This document shows positions 19,626-40,445 of a DNA stretch of 64,000 nucleotides, piece after piece; the stretch's first letter is position 1, and every line of letters begins with the position of its first letter. Made by a program: the position numbers and the translations under genes. The stretch spans positions 37,634-101,633 of the IMG/VR virus record IMGVR_UViG_3300039310_000050. One strand, given 5' to 3'. The notes below the pieces were generated by a model, which ran no database searches, was not told the origin of the DNA, and was given only the letters and a program-made list of their open reading frames with translations. The stretch is from a virus.

Positions 19626-19645
19626 CACGCTCATCCGAGGCGCCC

Positions 19646-19669
19646 ATTCGCGATTCGCGAATCGCGAAT
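19646..19669. repeat. Perfect 24-bp palindrome of three TCGCGA units
   Basis: The two 12-base halves are exact reverse complements and contain TCGCGA three times with a 7-bp period. GC-rich in an AT-rich genome. It lies between a 63-residue gene and tRNA-Gly; it could form a hairpin, be a protein-binding site, or be an imported repeat. Confidence 0.8.
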
Positions 19670-19717
19670 CCCGAATCTATAATGGTCTCATGGTCTTGAA
19701 GCCACAGGATTCCTCGC

Positions 19718-22302: not shown

Positions 22303-22315
22303 GTGATTTTTAAAG

Positions 22316-22408
22316 ACGCCTAGTGGATTCTTTGCTCACGCGAAAGAACCCTGTAAGGAGGCGAGATGATCTTGCTCAAGGACCATCTTCTTGTGGTATG
22401 CTAGGCGT
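22316..22408 (-). ncRNA. Structured noncoding element A, about 93 nt
   Basis: Closed by an exact 8-bp inverted repeat (ACGCCTAG at one end, CTAGGCGT at the other). Inside, on the minus strand, are two hairpins: one from GATGGTC paired with GATCATC, one from GGTTCTTT paired with AAAGAATCC, capped by GC-GTGA-GC (a GNRA-type loop). A G-U pair on the minus strand is an A-C mismatch on the plus strand, so the minus RNA folds better, the same direction as the tRNAs. The joining segment includes CCTCCTTA, the same as the 3' end of 16S rRNA. It lies between tRNA-Thr and the next promoter. No known RNA family recognised. Confidence 0.55.
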
Positions 22409-22421
22409 ACCCATACCAAAC

Positions 22422-24595: not shown

Positions 24596-24673
24596 TGGAC
24601 CACCAGGAGGGACTTGAACCCTCTAAGACCAGTTTTGCAGACCTAGCGCCTCGACCACCTCGGCATCTAGTGA
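24596..24673 (-). tRNA. tRNA-Cys (GCA anticodon), weak stems
   Basis: Loop CTGCAAA gives GCA. Acceptor TCACTAG/CTGGTGG pairs using two wobble pairs; anticodon stem TAGGT/ACTGG has a G-A type mismatch. T-loop TTCAAGT and encoded CCA are normal. Confidence 0.82.
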
Positions 24674-24936: not shown

Positions 24937-25276
24937 AAACTACATCCGGATCAACTGGCGCCACTACCACGCGGGCCGCGCTATCCAAATAACCATATGC
25001 TGTAGCCGTCCATTCACGGCTTGGAACAACCCGCAAAGTATGAGTACCCTTTTCAGTACCTTCTCTAATTGTTGCCTTATGTTGTTTGGGGATTCTATCC
25101 CAACACTTTGAGCAAAACAAATTCTTACCAGATGCCATATTCTTACACTTCGGATAATCAAAACATCTATGAACACTACCAACCTTTTTCTTGGTTTTAG
25201 TAGCACGCCGGATAGCATCCTGGCATTCACTACATTTTTGATCGTTTCTTCCGATACTTGAGCAACCTGAACACAT
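24935..25276 (-). CDS. Multi-zinc-ribbon protein, 113 aa
   Basis: Cysteine pairs CSGC, CSEC, CFDYPKC and CSKC in residues 1-60 suggest two zinc-binding ribbons, followed by TIREGTEKGTHTL and an alanine-rich tail. Probably binds nucleic acid or a protein partner. Consensus-like promoter upstream (25296-25324). The stop codon overlaps tRNA-Val by two bases. Confidence 0.7.
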   Translation of the reverse strand: MCSGCSSIGRNDQKCSECQDAIRRATKTKKKVGSVHRCFDYPKCKNMASGKNLFCSKCWDRIPKQHKATIREGTEKGTHTLRVVPSREWTATAYGYLDSAARVVVAPVDPDVV

Positions 25277-25295
25277 AAATTTTCAACCTCAATTC

Positions 25296-25324
25296 ATTGT
25301 AACACAATTTATTTAGAATGTCAA
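25296..25324 (-). promoter_or_regulatory. sigma70 promoter
   Basis: Minus strand TTGACA (25319-25324), 17-bp spacer, TACAAT (25296-25301); followed by the same AATTGAGGTTGAA leader seen before the 22256 start. Confidence 0.75.
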
Positions 25325-25347
25325 GGGGAATTTTAATTCCCCTATAT

Positions 25348-25530
25348 TTAAATCAACAAAATCAATTTGGGTAATAACCACGCGAATAACCAAATTAATA
25401 ACCCAATAACCAAAATAAAATTAATAACTACTCGAATTCTTTGGTCCATCGTCAAAGTACCCAATAAATACCACGCAAGACCAACAAAGGCAAGAACTAT
25501 ACAAGACACAAAAATTAAATGAAGAAGCAT
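25348..25530 (-). CDS. Small membrane protein, 60 aa, two transmembrane helices
   Basis: Two hydrophobic segments (about 3-25 and 36-58) separated by TMDQRIRVVIN. A late-type box TATAAATA lies 50 bp upstream. Size, topology and late promoter would suit a holin, but it is not near the lysozyme gene, so this is only a possibility. Confidence 0.68.
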   Translation of the reverse strand: MLLHLIFVSCIVLAFVGLAWYLLGTLTMDQRIRVVINFILVIGLLIWLFAWLLPKLILLI

Positions 25531-25579
25531 AAGATATCTTACTCCTTTCTGGAGATACAGACACTTATCTCATGTTAGT

Positions 25580-25587
25580 ATTTATAT
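25580..25587 (-). promoter_or_regulatory. T4-type late box TATAAATA
   Basis: Exact match on the minus strand, between tRNA-CAT and the 60-residue membrane protein; transcription would start near 25574. Confidence 0.6.
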
Positions 25588-25590
25588 TTT

Positions 25591-25665
25591 GGTAGCGGGT
25601 GGGGGTATCGATCCCCACTCTATGGCTTATGAGACCATCGTGACACCTGTTCACTTCACCCGCAT
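25591..25665 (-). tRNA. tRNA with CAT anticodon (Met, or Ile if lysidine-modified)
   Basis: Anticodon stem ATGGT/GCCAT with loop CTCATAA. With discriminator A and CCA, the terminal pair 1-72 is a T-T mismatch, while the inner six pairs (GCGGGT/ACCCGC) are perfect. Lacks the three G-C pairs of initiator anticodon stems. Whether it reads AUG or AUA cannot be decided here. Confidence 0.85.
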
Positions 25666-25673
25666 CAACCGTT

Positions 25674-26111
25674 TTAAATAATAACTATAAATCTATCATC
25701 CAAAAATTTTAAATGTGGTTTTACATCTTCCCACTTTAAACCACCATTTCCACAACCGACTTTAGGTAAATAAATTTCATTAATTCTCATTTCATTTACT
25801 AAATTTAAAAGTTCTTCTCCACTTTTAATAATTAATGATAAAATTGATTTTTCCCACCATTTATCTTTAGTTGGAAATGTAAATATATTAAATTCTTTCC
25901 AGTAATGGGTTCTATTACCATAATTTTGAATAAATTGGCCTAACATTTTTGATAAATTGGGGAAAGTATTTTTAGCTTTAAGAGCAACCCCTTTCCCCAT
26001 TACAGCATTATCATTTTTATTTAACCAATTATTTACAGTAATTATAATCGGATACCCAAGTTTATGTACCGTCCATAAATTATAAACTAAACTTTCTTTT
26101 ATTTCAACCAT
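25674..26111 (-). CDS. Macro-domain protein (ADP-ribose-binding)
   Basis: 145 residues. NDNAVMGKGVALKAKNTFPNL is the macro-domain N-terminal loop and LPKVGCGNGGLKWEDVKPHL the second substrate loop, matching Appr-1''-p phosphatase-like macro domains. These bind or hydrolyse ADP-ribose derivatives, including those made in tRNA repair or by ADP-ribosylation. Its location among tRNA and RNA ligase genes suggests RNA repair or counter-defence (inference). Overlaps the next gene by 8 bp. Confidence 0.82.
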   Translation of the reverse strand: MVEIKESLVYNLWTVHKLGYPIIITVNNWLNKNDNAVMGKGVALKAKNTFPNLSKMLGQFIQNYGNRTHYWKEFNIFTFPTKDKWWEKSILSLIIKSGEELLNLVNEMRINEIYLPKVGCGNGGLKWEDVKPHLKFLDDRFIVII

Positions 26112-26529
26112 TTTTATTTATCAAGTTAGCAACCGCTTGTTCATCTAATGGTTCAATCAAAAAACTTTTACCACGAGAATAATAACCAGACATTACTTCA
26201 CGGGCTGATTCTGTTATAATAGTGTGGGTTGATACTGCTTCCTCAAGTGCCCTAGTTAAAGAAAGAACACGTCCCGTTTCTTTTTTATAATTATCAACTG
26301 GATGCGTAAATGCTTTTCCAAAAAATTCTACTTCTGGAAGTGTAGGATGTTCTTCCATATATCCAACATTTAACTGTAAAGTACAATGAGTTTCCCCTCG
26401 TAAAAATTGCAATTTATCAGCTAAAGAAACCAATGAATTTACATTTGTATCTGCGATCCTAACTTCTGGAAGAAAATGCCGGAATTTAATTACAACCTTC
26501 CCCAATTTTTGTGTCTCAAACTTAATCAT
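26104..26529 (-). CDS. Hypothetical protein, 141 aa
   Basis: From MIKFETQKLGKVVIKFRHF at 26529 after AAAGGAAAATT; farther upstream the frame only reads tRNA-Lys. Mixed alpha/beta, with VSLADKLQFLRGETHCTLQLNVGY and a helical C-terminus. Not recognised. Confidence 0.62.
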   Translation of the reverse strand: MIKFETQKLGKVVIKFRHFLPEVRIADTNVNSLVSLADKLQFLRGETHCTLQLNVGYMEEHPTLPEVEFFGKAFTHPVDNYKKETGRVLSLTRALEEAVSTHTIITESAREVMSGYYSRGKSFLIEPLDEQAVANLINKNG

Positions 26530-26588
26530 ATAATTTTCCTTTTTATATTTAAACAACATCAATTTACAGTCCAAACTGTAATTGAATT

Positions 26589-26665
26589 TGGTGGCTTGTT
26601 TGGGGTACGATCCCAAATCTCTCAGCTTAAAAGGCTGGAGCTTTTTCCATTTAAGCTAACAAGCC
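26589..26665 (-). tRNA. tRNA-Lys (TTT anticodon)
   Basis: Acceptor GGCTTGT/ACAAGCC, loop CTTTTAA giving TTT, T-loop ATCGTAC (variant TTCGA), discriminator A, encoded CCA. It has its own promoter at 26692-26719. Confidence 0.9.
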
Positions 26666-26691
26666 AAAACTTTTTGTATTTCTTTTATTAT

Positions 26692-26719
26692 AGTATAGCA
26701 TATTTTAAAAAATTGTCAA
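26692..26719 (-). promoter_or_regulatory. sigma70 promoter for tRNA-Lys
   Basis: Minus strand TTGACA (26714-26719), 16-bp spacer, TATACT (26692-26697). Confidence 0.75.
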
Positions 26720-26727
26720 GCATTTTA

Positions 26728-26804
26728 TTTTGATATTCCATTACCGCTCGCTTCCCACCTGGGTTGGCTACCAGCCTCAGCCTCGTCCGTATGGAACATC
26801 AAAA
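26728..26804 (-). ncRNA. Structured noncoding element B, 77 nt
   Basis: The ends form a long stem of about 16 bp: TTTTGAT-G-TTCCAT on one side against ATGGAA-T-ATCAAAA on the other, with one G-U pair and one bulge. The GC-rich interior contains small hairpins (GGCT/AGCC and CCC/GGG). It begins 2 bases after the tRNA-Arg 3' end and ends 8 bases before the promoter of tRNA-Lys. No T-run follows, so it is not a classic terminator. Architecture and placement parallel element A. Confidence 0.55.
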
Positions 26805-26806
26805 CT

Positions 26807-26883
26807 TGGTACCCGTAGAGCGATTCGAACGCCCGACATACTGGTTAGAAGCCAGTTACTCTATCCAACTGAGTTATACGGGC
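26807..26883 (-). tRNA. tRNA-Arg (TCT anticodon)
   Basis: Acceptor GCCCGTA/TACGGGT, anticodon stem ACTGG/CCAGT with loop CTTCTAA, T-loop TTCGAAT, encoded CCA. Reads AGA/AGG, codons favoured by this AT-rich genome. Confidence 0.93.
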
Positions 26884-26911
26884 AAAATGTTTCATATATT
26901 TTTATAATTTT

Positions 26912-27008
26912 TGGCAGAGGGAATAGGATTCGAACCTACGGATGAACTTATTAAGCCCACCTACGGTTTTCAAGACCGCCGCAATAAACCGGACTCTGCC
27001 ATCCCTCT
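26912..27008 (-). tRNA. tRNA-Ser (TGA anticodon)
   Basis: Acceptor AGAGGGA/TCCCTCT, anticodon stem GCGGT/ACCGT with loop CTTGAAA, long variable arm, T-loop TTCGAAT, discriminator G, encoded CCA. Its first two bases are shared with the upstream gene's TAG stop. Confidence 0.93.
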
Positions 27009-27279
27009 ATAAATTAATACCAGCATCTATATATCCGTGACAATGATCTTCCCATTCGCCAGTGGCCTCATTGTACTTCATTCCACCTACTTCATTAAAT
27101 CCAAAAGCGCAACATTCACAAGGAATATAACTTTCATGAGTAACCTCATAATATTCTAAATTCATTACCATACACAAATGGTGTTCTCTCCAAGAACATC
27201 CACATATACAAATACCAGAACAATTAGGACCACTATATTTTGGTTCCCATTTTTCTATTGTTTGTTCTATTTGTATCAT
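27007..27279 (-). CDS. Cysteine-rich protein, 90 aa
   Basis: Cysteines in CSGICICGCSWREHHLC and YIPCECCAFGFNEVGG suggest zinc binding. The spacing looks like a known small phage protein type, not named here. Stop codon overlaps tRNA-Ser. Confidence 0.65.
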   Translation of the reverse strand: MIQIEQTIEKWEPKYSGPNCSGICICGCSWREHHLCMVMNLEYYEVTHESYIPCECCAFGFNEVGGMKYNEATGEWEDHCHGYIDAGINL

Positions 27280-27298
27280 AATTTATTAACCCATTAAA

Positions 27299-27586
27299 TT
27301 ATTTCTTTTTCTTAGCAACTTTTTTAATAGGTTTCTTTACTGTTTTAAATGGTAATTTTGATTGATCATTATCAGGAATTTCAACATCATAAATATGATC
27401 CTGAAGTCTATCAGTTGAACCTGATTCAATTTTCATTTCATCTCCATTATCATCTACTAAAGTAAGTAATGGAAATATAACTCCAGTTAAATGGCTTGTT
27501 TGTATGTCTTTAACTAACCAACTTTTAGTTAAACCAATAATTCTATCACCAACCCTCAAATCCTTTGCTTTCTTTTGTACCTTCAT
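27299..27586 (-). CDS. Hypothetical protein, 95 aa, basic tail
   Basis: KAKDLRVGDRIIGLTKSWLVKDIQ is a small beta-barrel-like start; the C-terminus is KKPIKKVAKKKK. Begins right after the next gene's stop. May bind nucleic acid through the basic tail (inference). Confidence 0.62.
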   Translation of the reverse strand: MKVQKKAKDLRVGDRIIGLTKSWLVKDIQTSHLTGVIFPLLTLVDDNGDEMKIESGSTDRLQDHIYDVEIPDNDQSKLPFKTVKKPIKKVAKKKK

Positions 27587-27587
27587 T

Positions 27588-27842
27588 TCAAACCTCCATA
27601 CCTTCTTCTTCTAAAATTTCTAAAGGTGTTCTTTTTCTTTCTTTGGCTAATTTATTAATATATTCACCCATTTCTGGTGATAATTGTTCATAAATTACCA
27701 ATTGTTTAATTTGTTTCTCGGGTGGAAGATTCCTTATATAATCTTTTCTTCCCATAATACAAGTTTTAGGATCATTATTATGCGGGTATTTATCAAGACC
27801 TGTTGCACATGCTTTACATATTTCACGCTTTTGATTTATCAT
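27588..27842 (-). CDS. Hypothetical protein, 84 aa
   Basis: Contains CKACATGLDKYPHNNDPKTC, possibly metal-binding, then helical KQIKQLVIYEQLSPEMGEYINKLAKE. Its start lies inside the 3' end of the decayed frame at 27823-27968. Confidence 0.6.
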   Translation of the reverse strand: MINQKREICKACATGLDKYPHNNDPKTCIMGRKDYIRNLPPEKQIKQLVIYEQLSPEMGEYINKLAKERKRTPLEILEEEGMEV

Positions 27843-27968
27843 AATATTTTCTTATAAAATAGGGAATTTCATTGACATATGTATCGTACCGTTTTTCATC
27901 TAAATTGGTCCTACTTCATACACATAATATTCTAAACCTTCTTCAAATACTATACCACAATTTCTCAT
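27823..27968 (-). pseudogene. Small gene broken by a frameshift
   Basis: ATG at 27968 overlaps the upstream stop (ATGA), as for functional genes here. It encodes MRNCGIVFEEGLEYYVYEVGP then meets a TAG; shifting frame gives NLDEKRYDTYVNEIPYFIRKYYDKSKA to a TGA at 27823. Span is 146 bp, two more than a multiple of three. Together about 48 residues of plausible protein. Confidence 0.6.
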
Positions 27969-28315
27969 ATTAAAACTTCCTTAATATCTAATGGAACTAT
28001 TTTCTTTTTATTCCATTTTTCTTTTTCTTCTTTATTCATTTGAACTAAACCACGATCCCATGCCCAACGAGCTAAACCTCTCATATCTCGAATAGAAGTT
28101 AAATATTTTGAAGTCATAAGTAATCGAGATATTTGATTATAATCTTCATTTTCTCGAATAGTTACAATAACTCTCCCACCTTCATCTTTTAATTTACCAA
28201 AAAAATTAGAAATACCAGATGGATTATATTTACCTTGAATTTCAAAAGTCCATTGGTGATGTTTCGCCTCAATTTTTTGTGCCGCCTTTTTTGTTTGGTT
28301 TTTCATGTGAAACAT
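27965..28315 (-). CDS. Hypothetical protein, 116 aa
   Basis: Basic N-terminus (MKNQTKKAAQKIEAKHHQWTF; the ATG at 28306 is an alternative start), central GISNFFGKLKDEGGRVIVTI and SIRDMRGLARWAWDRGLV. Unknown function. Between the RNA ligase and the broken small gene. Confidence 0.62.
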   Translation of the reverse strand: MFHMKNQTKKAAQKIEAKHHQWTFEIQGKYNPSGISNFFGKLKDEGGRVIVTIRENEDYNQISRLLMTSKYLTSIRDMRGLARWAWDRGLVQMNKEEKEKWNKKKIVPLDIKEVLI

Positions 28316-28330
28316 TAAAGAAAAAACATG

Positions 28331-29320
28331 CTATTTCTTCCTTTTGTCCTCCAAATAATCTATAGATACATATTTTAATATTAATCTTCCATGTAACCTT
28401 TCAGAATATCTTTCTTTAATACATTTAACTACACACCCCTCGCGGATATGTTTCGCGCCTTCTATTGTAGATAATCCATTTACATATTTTTGCATCACTT
28501 CTATAGAATATGGCCCGCGATATAACACTGGTACCAAAAAATCAGATTTGGCACCACCGAGGGCATCGTCATAATCCAAAAATTGACCTGCGGCGAATAC
28601 ATCAAACGCTCTAAACTTATAAGGACATTCCTGAGTAACACCATAATTAAATCCCTTCTGTACTGCACCAAAAATTTCTCCATATAAAATTACATCCGGA
28701 TTAAGACGGCAAAATGCTTCTACCCAAGGACAATATTCTAATACATTCCAATAAAGATTCTTTCCCTGTTCTGGTATTTTTTTCCATTGATAGTGCGATC
28801 CACAATACATTTTTCCATTTTGGAAAGTATACCGTGAATTTGCACCATGGATTTTTTCTGTAATTACAACTTCTTCACCTTCCACAAATTCATTCCGATA
28901 TTTTTGCCATGGTTCAATATCATAAATTACACCATCAATTGGTGGAGGATCTTGAAATTCTCCTTGAGCCGAATTAATTTCTGCGGATAATTCTGGGTCA
29001 TAATGTTTAATTCCAAGAATATCAGCAACATCATCACCAACTACCGATCCTTCAGGCGCAGGTATGAGCATACCATAAGATTCTTCCCCGCGGAATCTCC
29101 TAGCCCTGATTTTTAAATGCCCTTCCAAAAATTTAAATTGTTCAGTATTTGGAACAACTGAATCGGGTGGAAGATAAGCAGCCAAATCTCCTTTCTTCCA
29201 ATCTTCTAAACGAACAACACATTGATATCCATCAAATACTTTACAAATTCCGAGTAGGTCTGCGTTGGGGTGTTTTTCAATTTTTTCAATTCTAACCACT
29301 TCAACAATGAAATTACTCAT
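28331..29320 (-). CDS. RNA ligase, Rnl5/Rnl2 type with N-terminal OB domain
   Basis: 329 residues. Motif I TEKIHGANSR with lysine 156, motif III-like YGEIFG, motif IV-like EGCVVK, motif V LILKYVS. The N-terminal 130 residues (VEVVRIEKIEKHPNADLLG ... RARRFRGEESYGMLI) look like an OB domain as in Deinococcus-type Rnl5. It would reseal nicked RNA. Lying within the tRNA region, it may repair tRNAs cut by host anticodon nucleases, as T4 Rnl1 does, but by a different ligase family. Own promoter at 29349-29377. Confidence 0.85.
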   Translation of the reverse strand: MSNFIVEVVRIEKIEKHPNADLLGICKVFDGYQCVVRLEDWKKGDLAAYLPPDSVVPNTEQFKFLEGHLKIRARRFRGEESYGMLIPAPEGSVVGDDVADILGIKHYDPELSAEINSAQGEFQDPPPIDGVIYDIEPWQKYRNEFVEGEEVVITEKIHGANSRYTFQNGKMYCGSHYQWKKIPEQGKNLYWNVLEYCPWVEAFCRLNPDVILYGEIFGAVQKGFNYGVTQECPYKFRAFDVFAAGQFLDYDDALGGAKSDFLVPVLYRGPYSIEVMQKYVNGLSTIEGAKHIREGCVVKCIKERYSERLHGRLILKYVSIDYLEDKRKK

Positions 29321-29348
29321 AATTTATCCTTTATTTTATGATACATCT

Positions 29349-29377
29349 ATCATAACATAAAATAAATGAAATGTCAA
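29349..29377 (-). promoter_or_regulatory. sigma70 promoter for RNA ligase
   Basis: Minus strand TTGACA (29372-29377), 17-bp spacer, TATGAT (29349-29354). Back-to-back with the late box at 29383-29390. Confidence 0.7.
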
Positions 29378-29382
29378 GTGAA

Positions 29383-29390
29383 TATAAATA
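29383..29390 (+). promoter_or_regulatory. T4-type late box TATAAATA before GIY-YIG gene
   Basis: Exact match, transcription start expected near 29396, giving a leader of about 67 bases that opens with the hairpin at 29399-29432. Confidence 0.55.
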
Positions 29391-29398
29391 TTATTATC

Positions 29399-29432
29399 GG
29401 GACCAAGTGGTGTTTAAGACCGCATTGGCCCC
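29399..29432 (+). promoter_or_regulatory. 5'-end hairpin in the GIY-YIG leader
   Basis: GGGACCAAG pairs with the segment ending TTGGCCCC with one A-C mismatch, continued by GTGGT/ACCGC-type pairs. It is within 4 bases of the predicted start of the late transcript. The ribosome-binding AGAGG lies after it. Confidence 0.5.
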
Positions 29433-29462
29433 TGAACAAAGCATTAGAGGTAACTAACGCAA

Positions 29463-30083
29463 ATGTCTAAACCTATTTATTTAATATATAAACACACCAG
29501 TCCATCAGGAAAATCTTATATTGGATATACTTGTCAAACTATGAAAGAAAGATGGAAACAAGAAATTTCACATTCCAAAAATTTTAAACATGGACACAAA
29601 TTAGATACTGCTATTAGAAAATATCCAAATGAGGATCAATGGACTTATAAAATCCTAATATATAATATTCCAACTTTAGACGAAGCCAAGAATTTAGAAA
29701 TCATTTGTATATTTTATTTTGATACAAATATTAATGGATATAATATGACTCCTGGTGGAGATGGACATGGAAAACATTCTAAAGAAACTAAAAATAAAAT
29801 AGGTATGAAAAATAAAGGAAAAATTTCTTGGCGTAAAGGTAAAATTAATTTACCAAAACATTCTAAAGAAACTATATACAAAATGTCACAAATAAAATTA
29901 AATAAACATCCATCACAAAAAACTAAAAATAAAATATCTAAATCTTTAACTAATCGGAAACTTTCCAAAGAACATATATTTAACAGGTCTAAATCTCAAA
30001 CAGGATTAAAACGCTCACAAGAAACCAAAAGGAAAATACAAATAGCCAAATTAGGACAACATTACACAAAACAATGTGGATAG
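29463..30083 (+). CDS. GIY-YIG homing endonuclease (plus strand)
   Basis: 206 residues. PIYLIYKHTSPSGKSYIGYTCQTMKERW is the GIY-YIG core; NLEIICIFYFDTNINGYNMTPGGDG follows; the C-terminal half has four NUMOD3-like repeats (HSKETKNKIG, HSKETIYKMS, PSQKTKNKIS, RSQETKRKIQ). It is oriented against its neighbours and has a late-type promoter, consistent with an independent mobile gene. Related to 12871-13464. Confidence 0.9.
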   Translation: MSKPIYLIYKHTSPSGKSYIGYTCQTMKERWKQEISHSKNFKHGHKLDTAIRKYPNEDQWTYKILIYNIPTLDEAKNLEIICIFYFDTNINGYNMTPGGDGHGKHSKETKNKIGMKNKGKISWRKGKINLPKHSKETIYKMSQIKLNKHPSQKTKNKISKSLTNRKLSKEHIFNRSKSQTGLKRSQETKRKIQIAKLGQHYTKQCG

Positions 30084-30221
30084 CAAATATTTATTTGATG
30101 GTTTCTTTAAAGGTTAAGAAAAGGTGCGGTATTACGCAGATTCAAGTAAAACAAAAATCCATGAATTTTATCTCATTCTAAATCAACAAGATAGAGCGAT
30201 TGGAAATCATAAAAATGTGTT
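30084..30221. other. Intergenic stretch, nothing convincing
   Basis: 138 bp between convergent genes. A 27-codon plus-strand frame exists but has no ribosome-binding site. No promoter or terminator recognised. Confidence 0.5.
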
Positions 30222-30434
30222 TTATAGGCCAAGAAGTGTGGTTTCGATAGCTTGAACAAGCGATTCCAAATCATCATCCAAGCGGCCTATATCAATCAAG
30301 GACAATTGTGTATTACTTTCCAAAGTATATTCTCTCCGGATCTTTCCAAGTTCTGTTTTCAATAAGTAAAGAGTATCCGAATATAACTCATTCTCTCTTT
30401 CTAATTCCAACGTTTCGTTAATCTGTCTAGCCAT
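30222..30434 (-). CDS. Small helical protein, 70 aa
   Basis: MARQINETLELERENELYSDTLYLLKTELGKIRREY, predicted coiled coil followed by a second helix. Start overlaps the upstream gene by 8 bp. Unknown function. Confidence 0.62.
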   Translation of the reverse strand: MARQINETLELERENELYSDTLYLLKTELGKIRREYTLESNTQLSLIDIGRLDDDLESLVQAIETTLLGL

Positions 30435-31071
30435 TTAATTTCCACTCTGATGCTGGGAGGTAAGTTCTTATCCGAGCATACAATTTACTATTGGTTCCTT
30501 TTTGTAGATTTGGTGTTACATTTTTCTTTATTTCTTCTTTGGATAATTGGCGTTGATGGTAATTCTCCTGTATATAGATACCATCATCAACCTTAACACC
30601 ATTATGATATATTGGATAAGTAGTTTCATTTTTTGTTATCCAATAAACAAACCAACAACCTTTGATTTGTTTAAAGTCATATACATCACCAAAACCCAAA
30701 TTTATTGGTAAAAATTTACTTTGAATATAATCAATTTCTAATTCATTTGTATGAGGTTGTTTCCAAGATCTACTCTTATATTTTCCTTTACAAAGAAAAC
30801 CAGTATTTGGATCTACATAAAGATCTTCAATAGGATAAATTTTAGGAAAATGTGAATGTTGAGTATATGCTTCACCATTTAATATATAAACATTTTTTTC
30901 TACCATCCATAAAATACGATGACGAATTTCCTGTCCTATTTCAGTTTTATCATCAGCAAAATGGCAAATTTCAGAATATACTTTATCCCAAAGTTGTCCA
31001 ACTTTAGATTCTAAAAAACTATGCAAAACCGAATAATCAAAATAATCTTTAGCTTTCTTTTTATTCAACAT
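30427..31071 (-). CDS. Conserved phage protein, 214 aa
   Basis: SFLESKVGQLWDKVYSEICHFAD and DLYVDPNTGFLCKGKYKSR recur in proteins of unrelated tailed phages (recalled), but no function is known. Consensus promoter directly upstream (31080-31108). Confidence 0.68.
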   Translation of the reverse strand: MLNKKKAKDYFDYSVLHSFLESKVGQLWDKVYSEICHFADDKTEIGQEIRHRILWMVEKNVYILNGEAYTQHSHFPKIYPIEDLYVDPNTGFLCKGKYKSRSWKQPHTNELEIDYIQSKFLPINLGFGDVYDFKQIKGCWFVYWITKNETTYPIYHNGVKVDDGIYIQENYHQRQLSKEEIKKNVTPNLQKGTNSKLYARIRTYLPASEWKLNG

Positions 31072-31079
31072 AATACAAA

Positions 31080-31108
31080 ATTATATCATACCTCAATATT
31101 TTTGTCAA
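31080..31108 (-). promoter_or_regulatory. Consensus sigma70 promoter
   Basis: Minus strand TTGACA (31103-31108), 17-bp spacer, TATAAT (31080-31085). Confidence 0.85.
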
Positions 31109-31111
31109 GAT

Positions 31112-31360
31112 TTATTTTTGCTTTTTCCACCCAGTAGAAATTTTAGAATAACGCCGGTCTGACATTTCTACAATATTAGGATCTATTTGATTATTTAATG
31201 ATTCTTGAGCCCGCTGACGGAGTAATTGAGATGTAGAAAGAGTTTTAGATCTTTTTTCAACTATATCCTGCATCATTTCATTTACTTTGGGGCTTACTAC
31301 ATTATCAGGATTATTCTTTACTTGTTCCTTTAATTCAGAAATTTTTTGATTATCAAACAT
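31112..31360 (-). CDS. Hypothetical protein, 82 aa
   Basis: Helical and charged (QKISELKEQVKNNPDN ... SQLLRQRAQESLNNQ). Starts at the regA stop codon. Unknown function. Confidence 0.6.
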   Translation of the reverse strand: MFDNQKISELKEQVKNNPDNVVSPKVNEMMQDIVEKRSKTLSTSQLLRQRAQESLNNQIDPNIVEMSDRRYSKISTGWKKQK

Positions 31361-31764
31361 TATATCACTCTTTTCGGTTTTCCAATATTATATTTTGGAA
31401 CTAAAGTCCATCCTTCCTTTTCTTTGAAAGATAAAATTTTAATTAAATTAATTGGTGTAATAGGTGATTTAGATTTTTCTGGATCCACCAATTTTACTAA
31501 TCCCCATTCTGCCAAAAGATTTGCAATTGTATTACGGCGCCCTTTATCTTCTTCTGAAAAATTCGTTTGTTTTCCATCTAATGCAAAAAGTTCTTTAAAA
31601 TGGAGAATTTTATAGTGACCTTGTTTATGTAATATATGTGCCGATTGATATAATTTTGGTTCTTTACGTGAAGCTATTCCAATACGAGTTAAAGTTTCCT
31701 TAGTTTTTAAAAAATCATCCGGTGAGGATAAAGTGACTTCAATTCCAATATCATCAAATAACAT
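31360..31764 (-). CDS. regA: RegA translational repressor
   Basis: 134 residues from MLFDDIGIEVTLSSPDDF at 31764 (T4 RegA 122). DDFLKTKETLTRIGIASRKEPKLYQSAHILHKQGHYKILHFKEL, EEDKGRRNTIANLLAEWGLV and GWTLVPKYNIG align well with T4 RegA as I recall it. It binds start regions of early mRNAs, including its own. AAGGA precedes the chosen ATG; the frame further upstream is a leftover of an HNH gene. Genes 62 and 44 lie upstream as in T4. Confidence 0.92.
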   Translation of the reverse strand: MLFDDIGIEVTLSSPDDFLKTKETLTRIGIASRKEPKLYQSAHILHKQGHYKILHFKELFALDGKQTNFSEEDKGRRNTIANLLAEWGLVKLVDPEKSKSPITPINLIKILSFKEKEGWTLVPKYNIGKPKRVI

Positions 31765-31766
31765 AA

Positions 31767-31890
31767 TTTTTCCTTTTATTTCTTTGTTGTTCAGATCTTG
31801 TGGCCCACCCAACATTACCAGGCTCATAATTTTCATTATTATTTATATGATCAATAGTCTTTAGATGGACCTGAAATATCTTTATAAAAC
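31767..31890 (-). pseudogene. Relic of an HNH homing endonuclease (C-terminal end)
   Basis: Minus-strand reading gives IDHINNNENYEPGNVGWATR then SEQQRNKRKNYV, nearly the same as the C-terminus of the intact HNH gene at 9185-9715. A few preceding residues (CFIKIFQVHLKT) continue the frame into the end of gene 62. No start or HNH N-terminal part remains. Confidence 0.8.
31840..31847 (-). promoter_or_regulatory. Possible late box TATAAATA within the relic
   Basis: Exact match on the minus strand, 76 bp before the regA ATG, but it lies in former coding sequence for Asn-rich residues, so it may be chance. Confidence 0.3.
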
Positions 31891-32301
31891 ATTTTTCTTT
31901 TTATTTATACCACCCTGATACATTCGAGATTTAATATATTCAAGATCCTTTTCAGTAAGGATTTTCAATGCTTCTCTAGCTTTTTTAGTAGAATAGGAAT
32001 AATATTCTTTAACTAAATCTAAATTTTCAGGTTTTTCATCTTTTGTTCCTTTTGCAAAACGAGGACGCGCAGAAACACCATACAGATAAAAAAGATATTG
32101 AGGAGCACCATCTAAACTCGATCTTTTATTCATTTCTTGGGCATAATAAAGTGAATCAGGAAAACGAGCAAATATACGATTTATCACATACGCATACCGC
32201 TTATATTCTTTTTCAGTTATTTGAGGATCTGATTCAGAATCCTCAAGTAAATTTTTTTTCGTTTTATTAATTGAATCTAAAAACCTAAAAAAATCTGCCA
32301 T
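31882..32301 (-). CDS. 62: Clamp loader small subunit (T4 gp62)
   Basis: 139 residues from MADFFRFLDSINKTKKNLL at 32301. YVINRIFARFPDSLYYAQEMNKRSSLDGAPQYLFYLYG, RPRFAKGTKD and YSYSTKKAREALKIL match the short gp62-type subunits of T4-like phages. With gp44 it loads the gp45 clamp. It starts within the stop codon of the tiny upstream gene (TAATG). Its position between gene 44 and regA fits. Confidence 0.88.
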   Translation of the reverse strand: MADFFRFLDSINKTKKNLLEDSESDPQITEKEYKRYAYVINRIFARFPDSLYYAQEMNKRSSLDGAPQYLFYLYGVSARPRFAKGTKDEKPENLDLVKEYYSYSTKKAREALKILTEKDLEYIKSRMYQGGINKKKNVL

Positions 32302-32387
32302 TACAGAATATATTCCCAAGTACCATCCGCATCTGATAGGATATCTCCCGATTGTCTTTTCATTTTTACTACTTTCTTTTCTGTCAT
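32301..32387 (-). CDS. Small protein, 28 aa, coupled to gene 62
   Basis: MTEKKVVKMKRQSGDILSDA...; TAA overlaps the ATG of gene 62. AAGGATAAT before its start. Small but well placed. Confidence 0.5.
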   Translation of the reverse strand: MTEKKVVKMKRQSGDILSDADGTWEYIL

Positions 32388-32391
32388 ATTA

Positions 32392-33276
32392 TTATCCTTC
32401 TTTCAATAATTGTTCATGCATTGTTTTAAATGCTGCATAAAAATCTTCTGGATGAATTGAATAAGACCATAAATCACCATTCCCATCGGGAAAAGAAATT
32501 TCATAAAACCCAAAAAAGGTTCCACCGAAATGTGCTACTTGTTTTTCTTTTGGTGTATTTTCATTTTCAATTACATCTACCATACAATCTGCCAATTTAA
32601 ATCTCATTGTCCCTTTAGTTTGTCCGGGATACCAATCTCTTTGAACTGGGACAGAAATTGTAGCCACTGGAACTCTTGGCTTTTTGACAACTGGATCCGG
32701 ATCATTTTTGATTTCTTTTGGCTCTTTCTTTTTCTTTGCAATTTTCTTTTTCTTAACAGTTTTCTTTGGTACATATTTTTCCTCTACCAAATCTTCTGTC
32801 GGTGAATCTATTGAAGCATCAAATGCTTTATCGAGATTATCACCACTAATAACAATACCATGGTCATCTAACCACCATTGCGGAAATGAATGATCTTTGT
32901 TATGGTCTTCCAAAATTATATTATGTAATTCTATACCCCCCTTTTCAAACAATTCATCTATTTCATATTTTACATATACACGATAAGTATAATCTGAAAC
33001 CACAAGTATCAAAGAATTAGGATTATTTTCAGCCCATTTAATCAAATACCGTGAATTATCTTCCATCAATGAGGTTCCTGGCAGCATTCCACCAAAATCG
33101 TAAATAACTAAATCTGTACCTTCTTGAATACCACCCACGGAATGCGCCCGATATGCATCCAATTCACATGGAAAAATTAAAGCAGCAAATACTTTTTTAT
33201 GAGTTTCTACTTCCTCTTCTGCTGTATGCATAGAGGTGCCCATAGGATCTACAAGGATACAAGTTTTAATTTTCAT
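32392..33276 (-). CDS. Hypothetical protein, 294 aa, between genes 44 and 62
   Basis: N-terminal alpha/beta half: TCILVDPMGTSMH, DLVIYDFGGMLPG, LILVVSDYTYRVY look like a Rossmann- or receiver-like fold, without clear catalytic residues. Residues about 170-205 are a lysine-rich linker (KKTVKKKKIAKKKKEPKEI). The C-terminal 90 residues (MRFKLADCMVDVIENE ... GGTFFGFYEISFPDGNG) form a beta domain. T4 has no gene here. Overlaps gene 44 by 4 bp, so it is made together with the clamp loader. Confidence 0.68.
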   Translation of the reverse strand: MKIKTCILVDPMGTSMHTAEEEVETHKKVFAALIFPCELDAYRAHSVGGIQEGTDLVIYDFGGMLPGTSLMEDNSRYLIKWAENNPNSLILVVSDYTYRVYVKYEIDELFEKGGIELHNIILEDHNKDHSFPQWWLDDHGIVISGDNLDKAFDASIDSPTEDLVEEKYVPKKTVKKKKIAKKKKEPKEIKNDPDPVVKKPRVPVATISVPVQRDWYPGQTKGTMRFKLADCMVDVIENENTPKEKQVAHFGGTFFGFYEISFPDGNGDLWSYSIHPEDFYAAFKTMHEQLLKEG

Positions 33277-34217
33277 ATAACTTCAAATCCTTCATCTGCC
33301 ATTACAGTTGTTAAAAACGCAAGCAAACAAATTTCTTGATCCAAACTACGTGATGCTTGATCCAGAAAATCACCCAAAATCAAAACAAATTGTGGAATGA
33401 ATTCTGGCTTAAAATGAACATACATCACATCAAACAACTGCCGATATATGCGCGTGGGTTCATTATCTGCGTTATTAGCTACCCACTTTCTCACTTTACC
33501 AAAATCTTTATCTTTCATTGCTGCTAAAAGTTCCTTAATCGGAACATCGGCCAACTGGCTTAAAATACCTGAATCAATCTTTCCTGTAATTGCATATCTT
33601 TGAATTACACCAATTGTCATACGAAAATCAGGAAAGAATTTCGAAATCAATTGCATTAAAACTGCATTTTCAAATGGGATCTTTTCTATCTTTAAGATTT
33701 CGGCAATCCGTTGATGCATTTGTTTGGCCATAGAAACTTTTTCTTCTTTTGTTGGTTTAAAATCAACAATAGGACAGCGAGAAAATAAAGCATCAATTAC
33801 TTGATTCTTAAAATTGATAGTTAAAATAAAACTACAATTTCCAGAAAATTCTTCCATGAAATTCCGTAATGCTTCTTGAGTTAACTTGGTAAGCCCATCA
33901 GCTTCATCCAAAATAACTACTTTACGTCCACCAGTCATAGATACTGTTGATGAAAAACCACGAATATCTGTTCTCAATGTATCAATATTACCATTTTCAG
34001 AACAATTGATAATTAAACTATCCGCATCCAACTCATCACATAGCGCACGAGCAATAGTTGTTTTTCCAATTCCTGGAACACCATGTAAAGTTATATTAGG
34101 AATAATATTTTGATCTACATAAGATTGGAATATTATTCTGAGGTTTTCTGGAAGGACTGTATCTTTTACCGTACGTGGACGATATTTCTCTGCCCAAATA
34201 ATTTCTTTACGAATCAT
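33273..34217 (-). CDS. 44: Clamp loader large subunit (T4 gp44)
   Basis: 314 residues (T4 319). WAEKYRPRTVKDTVLP start, Walker A GVPGIGKTT (46-54), Walker B ILDEADG (102-108), arginine-finger FSRCP, then the C-terminal collar domain. AAA+ ATPase that opens the gp45 clamp with gp62. The start lies in the tail of a frameshifted small gene. Confidence 0.94.
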   Translation of the reverse strand: MIRKEIIWAEKYRPRTVKDTVLPENLRIIFQSYVDQNIIPNITLHGVPGIGKTTIARALCDELDADSLIINCSENGNIDTLRTDIRGFSSTVSMTGGRKVVILDEADGLTKLTQEALRNFMEEFSGNCSFILTINFKNQVIDALFSRCPIVDFKPTKEEKVSMAKQMHQRIAEILKIEKIPFENAVLMQLISKFFPDFRMTIGVIQRYAITGKIDSGILSQLADVPIKELLAAMKDKDFGKVRKWVANNADNEPTRIYRQLFDVMYVHFKPEFIPQFVLILGDFLDQASRSLDQEICLLAFLTTVMADEGFEVI

Positions 34218-34397
34218 GTAATACTTTTTCCTTTTCTTTTTTCAATTTAATTATTGTAGGATATTTAGGATCTCTACACCATCTACAAAGTAATGGTGCT
34301 CCTTTCATTTCACCCTCAAGAATTACAGCATCATAAAATAACCCGCGCGATCAGGAAATAATTGGTCACTCTCTCCACAAATTTTACATTTTTCCAT
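34207..34397 (-). pseudogene. Zinc-ribbon gene broken by a frameshift
   Basis: ATG at 34397 overlaps the upstream stop (TAATG). Frame 1 gives MEKCKICGESDQLFPDRAG; a shift then gives LFYDAVILEGEMKGAPLLCRWCRDPKYPTIIK and a stop at 34207. CxxC and CxxC together would form a zinc ribbon. Span 191 bp, not a multiple of three. Confidence 0.6.
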
Positions 34398-34678
34398 TAT
34401 GTAACCACCACTTTCAATTTAGTTCCTTGATTTTGTCCTTGATAATATGTAGGTTGTAAACATGCACTACAAACTCCTGCATAATATTTTGGTAATTTAA
34501 CTACTTGATCTGATTGAATTAAATCAAGGAACTTCTTTACACTAAAGGGATATGTTTTACGTTTTTCTTTATTTTCTGGTTCACTGGTATCAATTGCCAA
34601 AAATTGAGCCATTTTACGTTTCTGACCACAAAATTGGCAATGTAAAGTTGTATTTTTTCTTTTAGTAGATTTAGCCAT
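34397..34678 (-). CDS. Zinc-ribbon protein, 93 aa; source or partner of the ligase repeat
   Basis: Start MAKSTKRKNTTLHCQFCGQKRKM at 34678; CQFC and CSAC, about 60 residues apart, form a plausible zinc ribbon. The segment QVVKLPKYYAGVCSACLQPTY is encoded by the 65-bp repeat also found in the ligase. It fits naturally here as the second half of the ribbon, so this is likely the original copy. Its start overlaps the upstream gene. Confidence 0.72.
   Translation of the reverse strand: MAKSTKRKNTTLHCQFCGQKRKMAQFLAIDTSEPENKEKRKTYPFSVKKFLDLIQSDQVVKLPKYYAGVCSACLQPTYYQGQNQGTKLKVVVT
34445..34509 (-). repeat. 65-bp direct repeat, copy in zinc-ribbon gene
   Basis: Identical to 21278-21342; see that entry. 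Confidence 0.95.
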
Positions 34679-34940
34679 TTTCAATAGTCAAGGTTGATTT
34701 TAATTCCTTGTATCCTTTAACTATAATATCCCATTCAGGACCTACATATATAGAATTAAAAGGATGAAGTGATTTATCTAATTTAAAAACACCTTCACCA
34801 GCTAAAAGAAAAATTCCATTACCCAAACCATCAATATATCCAGAAAATACTGTTCCATATGTAATAGATCCTAAACGTCTAGATTCTTTTTTAACTTCTT
34901 TAGTTTTAATATTAATTTTCATTTGTGCCATAATTTCCAT
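34671..34940 (-). CDS. Hypothetical protein, 89 aa
   Basis: KESRRLGSITYGTVFSGYIDGLGNGIFLLAGEGVFKLDKS; beta-rich. Start is either 34940 or the ATG three codons later. No function assigned. Confidence 0.6.
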   Translation of the reverse strand: MEIMAQMKINIKTKEVKKESRRLGSITYGTVFSGYIDGLGNGIFLLAGEGVFKLDKSLHPFNSIYVGPEWDIIVKGYKELKSTLTIENG

Positions 34941-34981
34941 TTTTCCTTTTCACATTATTTGATTTATTATCCATAATATTT

Positions 34982-35057
34982 TGGTAGAGTTACCGAGGAT
35001 TGAACTCGGATTTGTGGCGTGAAGGGCCACCTTCCTATCCATTTAGAAGATAACTCC
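34982..35057 (-). tRNA. tRNA-Glu (TTC anticodon)
   Basis: Acceptor GGAGTTA/TAACTCT, anticodon stem GTGGC/GCCAC with loop CCTTCAC, T-loop TTCAATC, encoded CCA. Isolated from the other tRNAs, just after gene 45. Confidence 0.93.
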
Positions 35058-35062
35058 ACATT

Positions 35063-35761
35063 TTAATTACCATATTGACTAGCATTTGCTTCTAATACAA
35101 TATGATATGTAAGTGGTAAAGTCTCATGTTTAAAGCGGCTAATACCATCTTTACATACTGCAACATCATAAGTGCCTGGAATTAATGTTAAATAATCAAT
35201 TTTCCAAACAAATTTAAATGGAGGAATTTTAGCAGGTGCTTTACCAATTTCAAGACTGGTTGTATTTGTACTGCTATTTTTACTATCTAATGTAGTTAGA
35301 CTTAACTTTTTACCATCACTTTCAAGAGCCAATTCAGGCGTTCCTAAAGTTCTAGCCATATTTGTAATTGATCGAAATTGAGCTTCTGTTAATTTTAAGG
35401 TAACTTCAGTACTAGGTAAAGCTATTTTTTTCTTAGGATCTGGAATATATGCTAAAGCTTCATCTCCATAATGATATTTAACCGATAAACCACCAGATTC
35501 ATCACTAATTTTAACATATTCATCAGCTTCATCAAAAATCAATGTTGGTTTTTCAAATTGTGTTGTTACTGATAAAAATTGAGTTAAATCATAAATTGTA
35601 AATCTTTTAGGAAATTTTTCTGTTATTTCTACTTCTGCAAAAGTATGTTTCTTTACAGAACGTGTTACCAAATTATTTCCTTTTGGAAACAATAATGTTT
35701 GATTAATAGTTGCAAAATTCTTTAAAATATCAGTTGTTATTGGTGTTAATAATAGAGACAT
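35063..35761 (-). CDS. 45: Sliding clamp (T4 gp45)
   Basis: 232 residues (T4 228). LKNFATINQTLLFPKGN, FTIYDLTQFLSV and the C-terminal LTYHIVLEANASQYG correspond to conserved parts of gp45 as recalled. Trimeric processivity clamp for gp43, and in T4 also a mobile activator of late transcription, which fits the gp55 gene and late boxes here. The start overlaps the upstream gene by 32 bp. Confidence 0.9.
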   Translation of the reverse strand: MSLLLTPITTDILKNFATINQTLLFPKGNNLVTRSVKKHTFAEVEITEKFPKRFTIYDLTQFLSVTTQFEKPTLIFDEADEYVKISDESGGLSVKYHYGDEALAYIPDPKKKIALPSTEVTLKLTEAQFRSITNMARTLGTPELALESDGKKLSLTTLDSKNSSTNTTSLEIGKAPAKIPPFKFVWKIDYLTLIPGTYDVAVCKDGISRFKHETLPLTYHIVLEANASQYGN

Positions 35762-36173
35762 TAGCTAATTCCTTTTTCATTTCAATTATAAATTTCAATC
35801 TTAATGTATTTTCCAATACCGATTTATAATGTTGCATTAAAACTAATTTATATGCTTCAGAATCTTTAGTAACTATTACGGTATCCATTGCTTCAAATAA
35901 AGCTTGGCGCATATATACTAAACTATCCAAATGTTCTTCATAAGCATCTTTTAATGCATCACGCCCATTGAATGGTTGAAGTCTTGTACCATACTTATGA
36001 TATCCTGTACGGTCCCTTAATTTAATATCATCCATCAATTTTAATTGTGTTTTTTCTTGTATTGATCCTGGAGGAAATTTTTGTCTTGATAAATCACTTA
36101 ATACAAGATCCCAAATAGCAGGTTTATTATTTACTATTGGAGGCGGTTCTTTTTTCCATAATTCTTCATTCAT
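35730..36173 (-). CDS. Conserved phage protein, 147 aa, possible dNTP pyrophosphohydrolase-like
   Basis: RDRTGYHKYGTRLQPFNGRDALKDAYEEHLDSLVYMRQALFE recurs in phage proteins annotated as dATP/dGTP or MazG-like pyrophosphohydrolase domains; the E-x-x-x-D-x-x-x-Y arrangement would suit metal binding. Function not proven. Own consensus promoter. Confidence 0.6.
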   Translation of the reverse strand: MNEELWKKEPPPIVNNKPAIWDLVLSDLSRQKFPPGSIQEKTQLKLMDDIKLRDRTGYHKYGTRLQPFNGRDALKDAYEEHLDSLVYMRQALFEAMDTVIVTKDSEAYKLVLMQHYKSVLENTLRLKFIIEMKKELANVSIINTNNN

Positions 36174-36218
36174 TTTAAATATATCCCAAAATACTAAATT
36201 TTCTTTTTATCATTATTC

Positions 36219-36247
36219 ATTATAACATATTTCTATTTGGTTGTCAA
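36219..36247 (-). promoter_or_regulatory. Consensus sigma70 promoter
   Basis: Minus strand TTGACA (36242-36247), 17-bp spacer, TATAAT (36219-36224); likely drives the gene at 36173 and gene 45. Confidence 0.85.
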
Positions 36248-37177
36248 TTACCAAGTTTTCTTAATTGGCGGAGCAATAGGGTGTGAATTATCTTCATTTC
36301 CTATATCATCAGGTCCATCTTGTGCATTTGGATCTATTTTGGTATAAACATCAAGGAAACTAGTTTGAGTATTTAAATCAAATCTAGCAATACTATCTCG
36401 AATAGCCTTAATTCTATTACGTTTAAAAATGGCATAAGCTTTCACAATATATACTAAACGACCAGTACTAATTGTTTCATCTACACCACCTTGATTATAT
36501 GTTTGCCGTATATTTTCTGCCCATTGACACAAACAATCAATAAAATCAGGAGATTCAATACCATATATTGATAAATTCTTTTTAAGAATTTTGGCAGTTA
36601 TTTTTGAATTTGGATATCCTTGTTCATACATTAAAGGAAATCTTTCCAATAATGCTTCATTCATTACATTTGTTCCAATATATTTACCATCTTCACTACC
36701 TCGACCTTTTGTATTAGCTGTAGCTACAATATTGAAACCCTTACAAGGATGCACCCAACGATTAATTTTTTTAATATAAATTCCACTACCTTCTAAAAGA
36801 GGTTGCATACATAAAAATTTGGAAGAACCTAAATCAATTTCATCTAATAAAAGAAGTGCACCACTAGGATCTTCGGCTGCTTTAACTGCTGGTCCATCTT
36901 CCCAAATTGTATCTCCATTAATTAACTTATAACTTCCTAATAAATCACTTTCATCCGTTTCAATCGTAATATTTACTCGATACAAATTTTTCTTATTTTC
37001 TGCACAAATCTGTAAAGGAATTAATGTCTTCCCAGATCTTGTGGGACCTGTAATATAAAATGGTAGAAAAATACCACTATCAATAATAGTTTTTACATCA
37101 TTATAACAACCAAAAGGAACAAAGGTTGGGTCTTTTTCAGGAATAAAATTATTTGAATTTTCAATTTTCTTCTTCAT
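36248..37177 (-). CDS. MoxR/CobS-like AAA+ ATPase
   Basis: 309 residues. Walker A GPTRSGKT (44-51), Walker B ALLLLDEID (107-115), sensor region NIVATANTKGRG and EALLERFPLMYE, typical of MoxR and CobS ATPases. CobS-like genes are known in cyanophages and other T4-like phages, where their role is unclear. The VWA/CobT-like partner is encoded just upstream (37660-39861), so the pair probably forms a chaperone or metal-insertion-like complex (inference from the MoxR-VWA families). Confidence 0.85.
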   Translation of the reverse strand: MKKKIENSNNFIPEKDPTFVPFGCYNDVKTIIDSGIFLPFYITGPTRSGKTLIPLQICAENKKNLYRVNITIETDESDLLGSYKLINGDTIWEDGPAVKAAEDPSGALLLLDEIDLGSSKFLCMQPLLEGSGIYIKKINRWVHPCKGFNIVATANTKGRGSEDGKYIGTNVMNEALLERFPLMYEQGYPNSKITAKILKKNLSIYGIESPDFIDCLCQWAENIRQTYNQGGVDETISTGRLVYIVKAYAIFKRNRIKAIRDSIARFDLNTQTSFLDVYTKIDPNAQDGPDDIGNEDNSHPIAPPIKKTW

Positions 37178-37239
37178 AATGTATATTATCCAATTTTTTA
37201 TTCTATTCCAAAAGGTTTCGCTTTTACATCATTTTCATC

Positions 37240-37566
37240 TTACCATACTTCAGGTTCAACTGGCTCCTTTGGAACTTTCAATGGTTTCGTTTTAATTACT
37301 ACATCTTTAAATGCCACAACTGGCAATTTTAAAAGAACAGTCAAATCATATCGGGCCCGTTTATCTGGAATACGAACCTTTAAATTCTTACTAATCCATG
37401 ATGGTGCAAATTTTAAACCATTAATCTCTTTTGTAGCTTTTAATAAATCAGAACGTTTTACAAGATTTGCATTCTTTCCAAATTTTGCAATTAGTTGATC
37501 TAAAAATAATCTTTGGCTTGTTGTTAAACTTTTTGGTGAATTATTATCCACTTTTTTCTTGGACAT
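37240..37566 (-). CDS. Hypothetical protein, 108 aa
   Basis: TTSQRLFLDQLIAKFG and RSDLLKATKEINGLKFAPSWISKNLKVRIPDKRARYDL: a winged-helix-like or DNA-binding appearance, not certain. Lies between the MoxR and VWA genes with a perfect promoter. Confidence 0.62.
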   Translation of the reverse strand: MSKKKVDNNSPKSLTTSQRLFLDQLIAKFGKNANLVKRSDLLKATKEINGLKFAPSWISKNLKVRIPDKRARYDLTVLLKLPVVAFKDVVIKTKPLKVPKEPVEPEVW

Positions 37567-37584
37567 TTCTAACCCCTATCTTTA

Positions 37585-37613
37585 ATTATACTATATTTTC
37601 AATGAATTGTCAA
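37585..37613 (-). promoter_or_regulatory. Perfect consensus sigma70 promoter
   Basis: Minus strand TTGACA (37608-37613), 17-bp spacer, TATAAT (37585-37590). Confidence 0.88.
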
Positions 37614-37659
37614 GTACCCTATTTAATGAATCTTGTTAAAAAACGCGGACATTATAAAA

Positions 37660-39861: not shown

Positions 39862-39885
39862 TTAATCTCCAAAGACTTCAAAATT

Positions 39886-40350
39886 TTATTTTGGATCATT
39901 CCCGCATGGCGCAAAAGTCTCTTTCTCTTCCACCTCGTACAGCCAAACGTGATCGTCTTGGTGGCCTCTCGCCATCGGGATGATCCATCGAAGGTTTGGA
40001 ACCACGTTGGGGAGGTCCGAAACTGGGAATATGCGCACCTCTTCGGACTCCAGCGTGCGGCAAGCCTCCAGTTTTGTTGTGTCAAAGGCATGAAAGAACT
40101 CAACAGACCAATCCTTCCCAAAAAGTCTGAGAAATAGCGTCCAACCCACGGCAACTCCAGCCTCTTCATTGAACTCGCGCCACATGGCCGCGCTGGCGCT
40201 TTCATCTGGCAACCCAGGCTCTCCGGATGTGCGCTTACCGCCGATGGCATTCCAGTGCCCTACCACCGAAGCAGGCCCGTGGTTCTTGTGGATCAAGGCT
40301 ACCTTGGAGCCGTCAGAACTGAAAAGAAAACCGGCAACGTACTTTGTCAT
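39886..40350 (-). CDS. NUDIX hydrolase, recently acquired
   Basis: 154 residues. The Nudix box is GEPGLPDESASAAMWREF followed by NEEAGV; the spacing before the first glutamate has one extra residue. Hydrolyses a nucleoside diphosphate linked to another group; substrate unknown. Two 60-base lines inside the gene count 62-65% GC, against 30% in a line of the neighbouring gene, and codons are GC-ending, unlike all other genes here. Strong GGGAGG ribosome-binding site. It seems to use the promoter at 40446-40474. Confidence 0.87.
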   Translation of the reverse strand: MTKYVAGFLFSSDGSKVALIHKNHGPASVVGHWNAIGGKRTSGEPGLPDESASAAMWREFNEEAGVAVGWTLFLRLFGKDWSVEFFHAFDTTKLEACRTLESEEVRIFPVSDLPNVVPNLRWIIPMARGHQDDHVWLYEVEEKETFAPCGNDPK

Positions 40351-40372
40351 TCGGCCCTACCTCCCGCTGTAG

Positions 40373-40438
40373 TCATGTTTTAGATGAATATACCAACTTC
40401 TTCTTACATTTTGGACAAATTCTACTATATTCATTCAT
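40373..40438 (-). pseudogene. Truncated zinc-ribbon frame upstream of the NUDIX gene
   Basis: MNEYSRICPKCKKKLVYSSK is an N-terminus typical of phage HNH or zinc-ribbon proteins, but it ends after 21 residues exactly where the GC-rich island begins. Its promoter is intact. Probably cut by the arrival of the NUDIX gene. Confidence 0.55.
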
Positions 40439-40445
40439 AAATTTA

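Follow-up and report, generated by a model that had tools for sequence, protein, structure and literature searches.

A conserved, single-copy structured RNA linked to tRNA genes in many otherwise unrelated bacterial viruses

We analysed a 64-kb stretch of viral DNA (the window), part of a 101.6-kb virus record whose terminase shares about 47 % identity with the terminases of cyanophage-type T4-like phages. The window carries 16 tRNAs, all on the minus strand, and in the gap between two of them lies a small structured element that reads in the same direction as its tRNAs, from 26804 to 26728 (Table 1). An earlier note on this DNA had placed it between tRNA-Arg, whose CCA end lies 2 nt upstream, and the tRNA-Lys promoter, whose TTGACA box follows after 8 nt, and these positions are right. 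The closing stem of 16 bp that it described (P1) also holds, with one bulged A; the stem is AT-rich and is followed by TAAAATGC. The core has the anatomy described, except that its short hairpins, such as GGCU-GGU-AGCC, belong to the minimum-energy fold and not to the conserved structure, in which the inner helix of the window copy is 3 bp (CUG/CAG) flanked by a purine-rich internal loop. The note was likewise correct that the element is not a standard intrinsic terminator, since no T-run follows P1 in the window.

Table 1 Features at the element locus of the window
Feature	Position	Strand	Basis or remark
Small RNA element, whole	26728..26804	(-)	R1 covariance model match 26726-26804; fold z
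P1 closing stem, 5′ arm, 16 nt	26789..26804	(-)	Letters differ in every lineage
Conserved core, 5′ half, GGAC-G-AGGCU-GA-GG	26775..26788	(-)	GRA bulge, then C-R pairing with Y-G
P2 hairpin, 3 bp	26759..26774	(-)	CUG 26772-26774 pairs with CAG 26759-26761
P2 loop, GUAGCCAACC	26762-26771	(-)	Inserts of up to about 180 nt instead in other phages
Conserved core, 3′ half, GUGGGAAGCGAG-C-G	26745..26758	(-)	Recovered by the scan fixing the 5′ half only
P1 closing stem, 3′ arm	26728..26744	(-)	Fold and comparison
tRNA-Arg(TCT)	26807..26883	(-)	Directly upstream of the element, 2-nt linker
tRNA-Ser(TGA)	26912..27008	(-)	Upstream member of the array shared with tRNA-Arg and the element
Sigma-70-like tRNA-Lys promoter, TTGACA-16-TATACT	26692..26719	(-)	Sequence; pattern match on the identical relative L003
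tRNA-Lys promoter boxes	TTGACA 26714-26719; -10 TATACT 26692-26697	(-)	Begins 8 nt past the element
tRNA-Lys(TTT)	26589..26665	(-)	Downstream of the element

The minus-strand fold of the element reaches -27.5 kcal/mol (z -3.35) and beats 200 of 200 dinucleotide shuffles. The plus strand folds similarly well (z -3.43), so fold energy alone cannot give the strand, which we took from the comparative data. We built a covariance model (R1) on 30 divergent copies, that of the window among them; it gave one match only in the window, the element itself, at 64.4 bits (E 6e-14). Elsewhere in the window a tRNA-like stretch with anticodon GCA (Cys) lies at about 24600-24670 on the minus strand, between tRNA-His/Tyr and tRNA-Ala; it is called by neither ARAGORN nor the tRNA model of Rfam. 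Overlapping short palindromes (cgcgattcgcgaatcgcgaatcccgaat) are found at 19645-19672, just upstream of tRNA-Gly.

Before any model was made, a blastn search with the intergenic stretch matched Streptomyces phages (80 % over 51 nt, E 8e-4) at sites within tRNA arrays, where the core is nearly alike and the letters of P1 are wholly different yet still pair. A first loose pattern gave mostly chance matches. Two scans of IMG/VR with the pattern AGGCTNNGG-N(8-69)-TGGGAWGCGNGYGG then yielded 83 distinct copies (first set), and a further scan fixing the 5′ half alone added at least 69 new distinct copies (second set). Conservation at positions within the first search patterns is partly by construction. 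The 3′ core is however carried by 65 of the 69 second-set copies listed, two of the other four running off the end of their contig, and since only the 5′ half had been fixed this 3′ conservation was not made by the search pattern. The family totals at least about 145 distinct copies on IMG/VR contigs together with 118 records of cultured Streptomyces phages that fit the consensus, none of which, among the records listed, is annotated there. Two Arthrobacter phages fit the same core pattern with longer inserts, and a Microcystis phage fragment fits it with a copy at the end of the record, so that Microcystis phages probably carry the element as well. We conclude that these copies form a family of small structured RNA that had not been classified before and is shared by many bacterial viruses not otherwise related to one another.

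The consensus reads P1, a GRA bulge, C-R pairing with Y-G, AGGCUNNGG, a P2 of 3 bp, a loop or insert, and RUGGGNNGCGNG. Its core letters are invariant or nearly so, while the sequence of P1 is completely different between copies with pairing kept. Across the ten inner pairs of the 30-row alignment all 300 of 300 cells are paired, compared with 81 % after shuffling and 25-40 % in slid controls, and the same pairs show 59 double changes against 17.4 in shuffles. Two of them, G24-C55 and C25-G54, never vary and are therefore uninformative either way; both also fall inside the search pattern. The R and Y of the C-R/Y-G pairs covary (A-U 56, G-C 10), as do all three pairs of P2, which is paired in 63 of 65 second-set copies listed. 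P1 lies outside every search pattern and was hence unconstrained by the search; it has at least 6 uninterrupted bp in 96 % of the first set and 91 % of the second set as listed, compared with 12 % when arms or flanks are swapped between phages. Conservation of the paired arms had been named beforehand as a test, and it is the pairing that is strongly kept, not the sequence of the arms.

Within the internal loop the two bases after GUGGG vary in the second-set copies listed (AC, AT, UA, AA and others). Position four of the inner helix is G-C if an A follows GUGGGA and mostly A-G or G-A if a U does, and the loop base by itself is enough to predict the core base for 63 of the 66 distinct sequences. 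This non-Watson-Crick covariation of a loop base with a core base hints at a tertiary contact. In longer members there is also an apical domain, in which a motif of the form stem-GGAG ... CGUU-stem recurs. The apical loop insert of one copy (L373, about 2805-2950) is about 150 nt long and contains an ORF of about 43 codons starting MKTKYINEF.

No model of Rfam 15 matches over the element at gathering threshold in the window or in 20 loci with copies, and searches of the window copy, one short and one long member at E values up to 10 likewise give none there. ARAGORN and the tRNA model of Rfam both find no tRNA or tRNA-like cloverleaf in the element. The similarity between GUGGGAUGC and the c-di-GMP-I riboswitch was discounted, as the pairing differs and there is no Rfam match. 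The literature searched on the core sequence and on RNAs of phage tRNA clusters yielded no description of the element. The RNA class is thus new relative to Rfam 15, which lacks some published motifs, and to the literature searched.

We sampled 1,507 bacterial genomes, covering four phyla, and with the short-insert pattern, which misses long-insert forms, found no credible copy: there were no matches in 1,129 genomes of Actinomycetota, Bacteroidota and Pseudomonadota, and the single match in 378 genomes of Bacillota was due to chance and not accepted by R1. Absence from bacteria is in this sense a statement about the sample, and within the samples searched the element is restricted to phages. 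Carriage by plasmids was considered and set aside, the matches being weak and partial only, as was mimicry of a host RNA, since 5,426 E. coli genomes contain nothing that matches the consensus core.

When R1 was run on 49 whole phage records, 48 proved to have a single copy and the remaining one to have two; the virus record of the window has one. All tRNAs within 400 nt of copies are on the same strand as the element (73/73 and 129/129, or 202/202, the second set as listed). Considering only loci that have a tRNA on their stretch, 21 of 30 copies of the first set without Streptomyces phages have a same-strand tRNA or tmRNA within 31 nt (0.9 at random), and 32 of 46 in the second set as listed have one within 40 nt (2.2 at random). 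The 119 non-Streptomyces copies listed comprise 37 between tRNAs, 17 only after a tRNA, 11 only before one and 54 without a tRNA in a chained position, some of these stretches being short. Given the last group, tRNA maturation cannot be the sole route to the RNA. Some copies in other phages adjoin a tmRNA. Gaps are 8-24 nt from the tRNA end to the core and 11-35 nt from the core to the next tRNA and consist mostly of the P1 arms, indicating that the element is packed as a member of the array, with no preference for its start or end. These data establish that the element is a genuine conserved RNA gene, present as a single copy, whose core is fixed and whose stems are free to vary, and that it is linked to tRNA transcription.

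A sigma-70-like promoter, with a -10 box ending 12-22 nt before GGAC, precedes 28 copies, nearly all in Streptomyces phages, and this spacing puts the predicted transcript start at about the 5′ end of P1. In many copies another promoter or a tRNA lies directly downstream. Streptomyces phages such as L001, L238 and L275 have a gene for a VWA-type or TerD-like protein after the element, in the same position across genera and sometimes with its own promoter between the two. Cis-regulation of a fixed downstream gene was rejected, because such a gene is found only in Streptomyces phages and a second TTGACA intervenes in some of them. At one other locus (L292) an abiF RNA (RF03085, above gathering threshold) is found at 1265-1301, about 100 nt downstream of an element copy.

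Occurring once per genome and usually among tRNA genes, the element is probably a stable helper RNA and not a transcription terminator. Our preferred reading, to which we give a probability of roughly 0.55, is that of a stable single-copy phage RNA that is released with the tRNAs and acts in trans through its internal loop. In the phage of the window it would be transcribed as the last member of a tRNA-Ser - tRNA-Arg unit, from which tRNA processing would free it as a stable RNA in its own right, about 77 nt long and with P1 closing its ends, and in other phages the same RNA would come from between two tRNAs, from beside a tmRNA or from a promoter of its own. Its working part would be the invariant purine-rich internal loop (the GRA bulge and AGGCU/RUGGGNNGCG), with P1, P2 and the optional apical domain keeping that loop in shape. 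The RNA may accumulate. Its copy number and varied position suggest that it may act in trans, and it may bind a conserved factor shared by the hosts of these phages; our guess is that this factor most likely belongs to translation or RNA metabolism, with the RNA serving as a decoy or modulator. The placement of copies inside tRNA arrays, as additional members joined by short linkers, agrees with one of three proposals of the earlier note, a stable RNA matured with the tRNAs.

The other two proposals, an insulator and a non-classical terminator, fit poorly. Single copies and varied positions argue against terminators, insulators and ribozymes acting on tRNA ends, since any of these should recur at many tRNAs or keep to fixed positions. 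An element that terminates, insulates or stabilises the 3′ end of a tRNA transcript would suit the window copy, which has a tRNA 3′ end on one side and the following promoter on the other, and in a few other copies a T-run continues from P1, which could then also act as a terminator stem. We nevertheless regard this as very improbable: there is one element per phage, found before, within or after arrays (37 inside them among the matches listed), some copies are promoter-proximal with predicted transcripts starting at the element, the window copy has no T-run, and termination needs no invariant internal loop. The earlier note had also treated the element as the second example of one thing, a view that the data do not support. 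The probable first example, at 22310-22418 of the window on the minus strand, similarly lies 3′ of a tRNA (tRNA-Thr) and before another TTGACA (z -2.33), but R1, the model for the present element, does not match it, and an exact 27-base piece of it occurs among viral contigs only in two from near relatives of the window.

An invariant internal loop between freely variable stems with an optional apical domain is typical of ribozymes, and the covariation outside Watson-Crick pairing points to tight tertiary folding. These features, together with a location 3′ of tRNAs that recalls theta ribozymes (PMC10879173), would be accounted for by a catalytic RNA of a new class, such as a self-cleaving one, with the internal loop as active site and possibly freeing tRNA ends. 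We consider it unlikely, as there is a single copy per genome despite many tRNAs, copies also stand ahead of tRNAs and at the start of transcripts, positions from which a cut would serve no tRNA, the element's own P1 arm separates the core from the tRNA 3′ end, and Rfam ribozyme models have no match at E up to 10. The conserved purine-rich loop between variable helices is equally a property of riboswitch aptamers, and a ribosome-binding site follows closely on some copies. An aptamer or sponge for a small molecule, such as a host nucleotide signal, appears still less probable, given that the downstream gene is inconsistent outside Streptomyces phages, that many copies are directly followed by a promoter or tRNA, and that no Rfam riboswitch matches. 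Action in cis on RNA polymerase we judge to be quite improbable. The put RNA of HK022, a short structured phage RNA antiterminator, can start at a promoter, and a put-like function could protect long untranslated tRNA operons, which are exposed to Rho; promoter-proximal copies do begin at the transcription start. Unlike put, however, the element shows no promoter bias in its array position and no preference for array starts, the window copy ends a unit just ahead of the next promoter, and R1 has no match in the early region of HK022 (25000-40751), where put sites are not annotated.

What is conserved is an RNA with an invariant loop, present as a single copy in phages of Streptomyces, Arthrobacter, probably Microcystis and many uncultured hosts, and such conservation means that the RNA must serve some need of these phages. 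As a broader and tentative proposal, the family, carried as an extra member of tRNA arrays, may be a new functional class of phage RNA, either a new natural ribozyme or a decoy against a host factor of translation, RNA decay or tRNA-cutting defence that is conserved across bacterial phyla. Several cultured carriers (Karimac, NootNoot, Annadreamy and Braelyn), which can be grown on laboratory Streptomyces, make its role directly testable. The finding bears on the old question of what extra stable RNAs do in phage tRNA clusters.

GOLLD and ROOL are structured noncoding phage RNAs that often lie near tRNAs. Structures have been reported for both (PMC12286853). They are homo-oligomers of several hundred nucleotides, in contrast to the element, which has no Rfam match. 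Theta (HDV-like) ribozymes of gut phages are structured RNAs beside phage tRNA 3′ ends, with a nested double pseudoknot and a cleavage site within 5 nt of the tRNA end (PMC10879173). The two ends of the element instead pair together, and copies occur also before tRNAs and without them; an HDV-like ribozyme was rejected on this topology, on the distance of 8-24 nt between tRNA end and core, and on the lack of a match to the HDV-type models of Rfam. Extra RNAs in a phage tRNA cluster are a kind known since T4. There RNA C and RNA D (species 1 and 2 RNA, rnaC and rnaD), which are annotated as stable RNAs and for which we know of no function, likewise lie directly 3′ of a tRNA. They were discarded as relatives, R1 having no match in T4 69500-73500 at E up to 10. 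The element is shorter than they are and occurs in unrelated phages, and its genomic placement would fit an RNA of the same kind.
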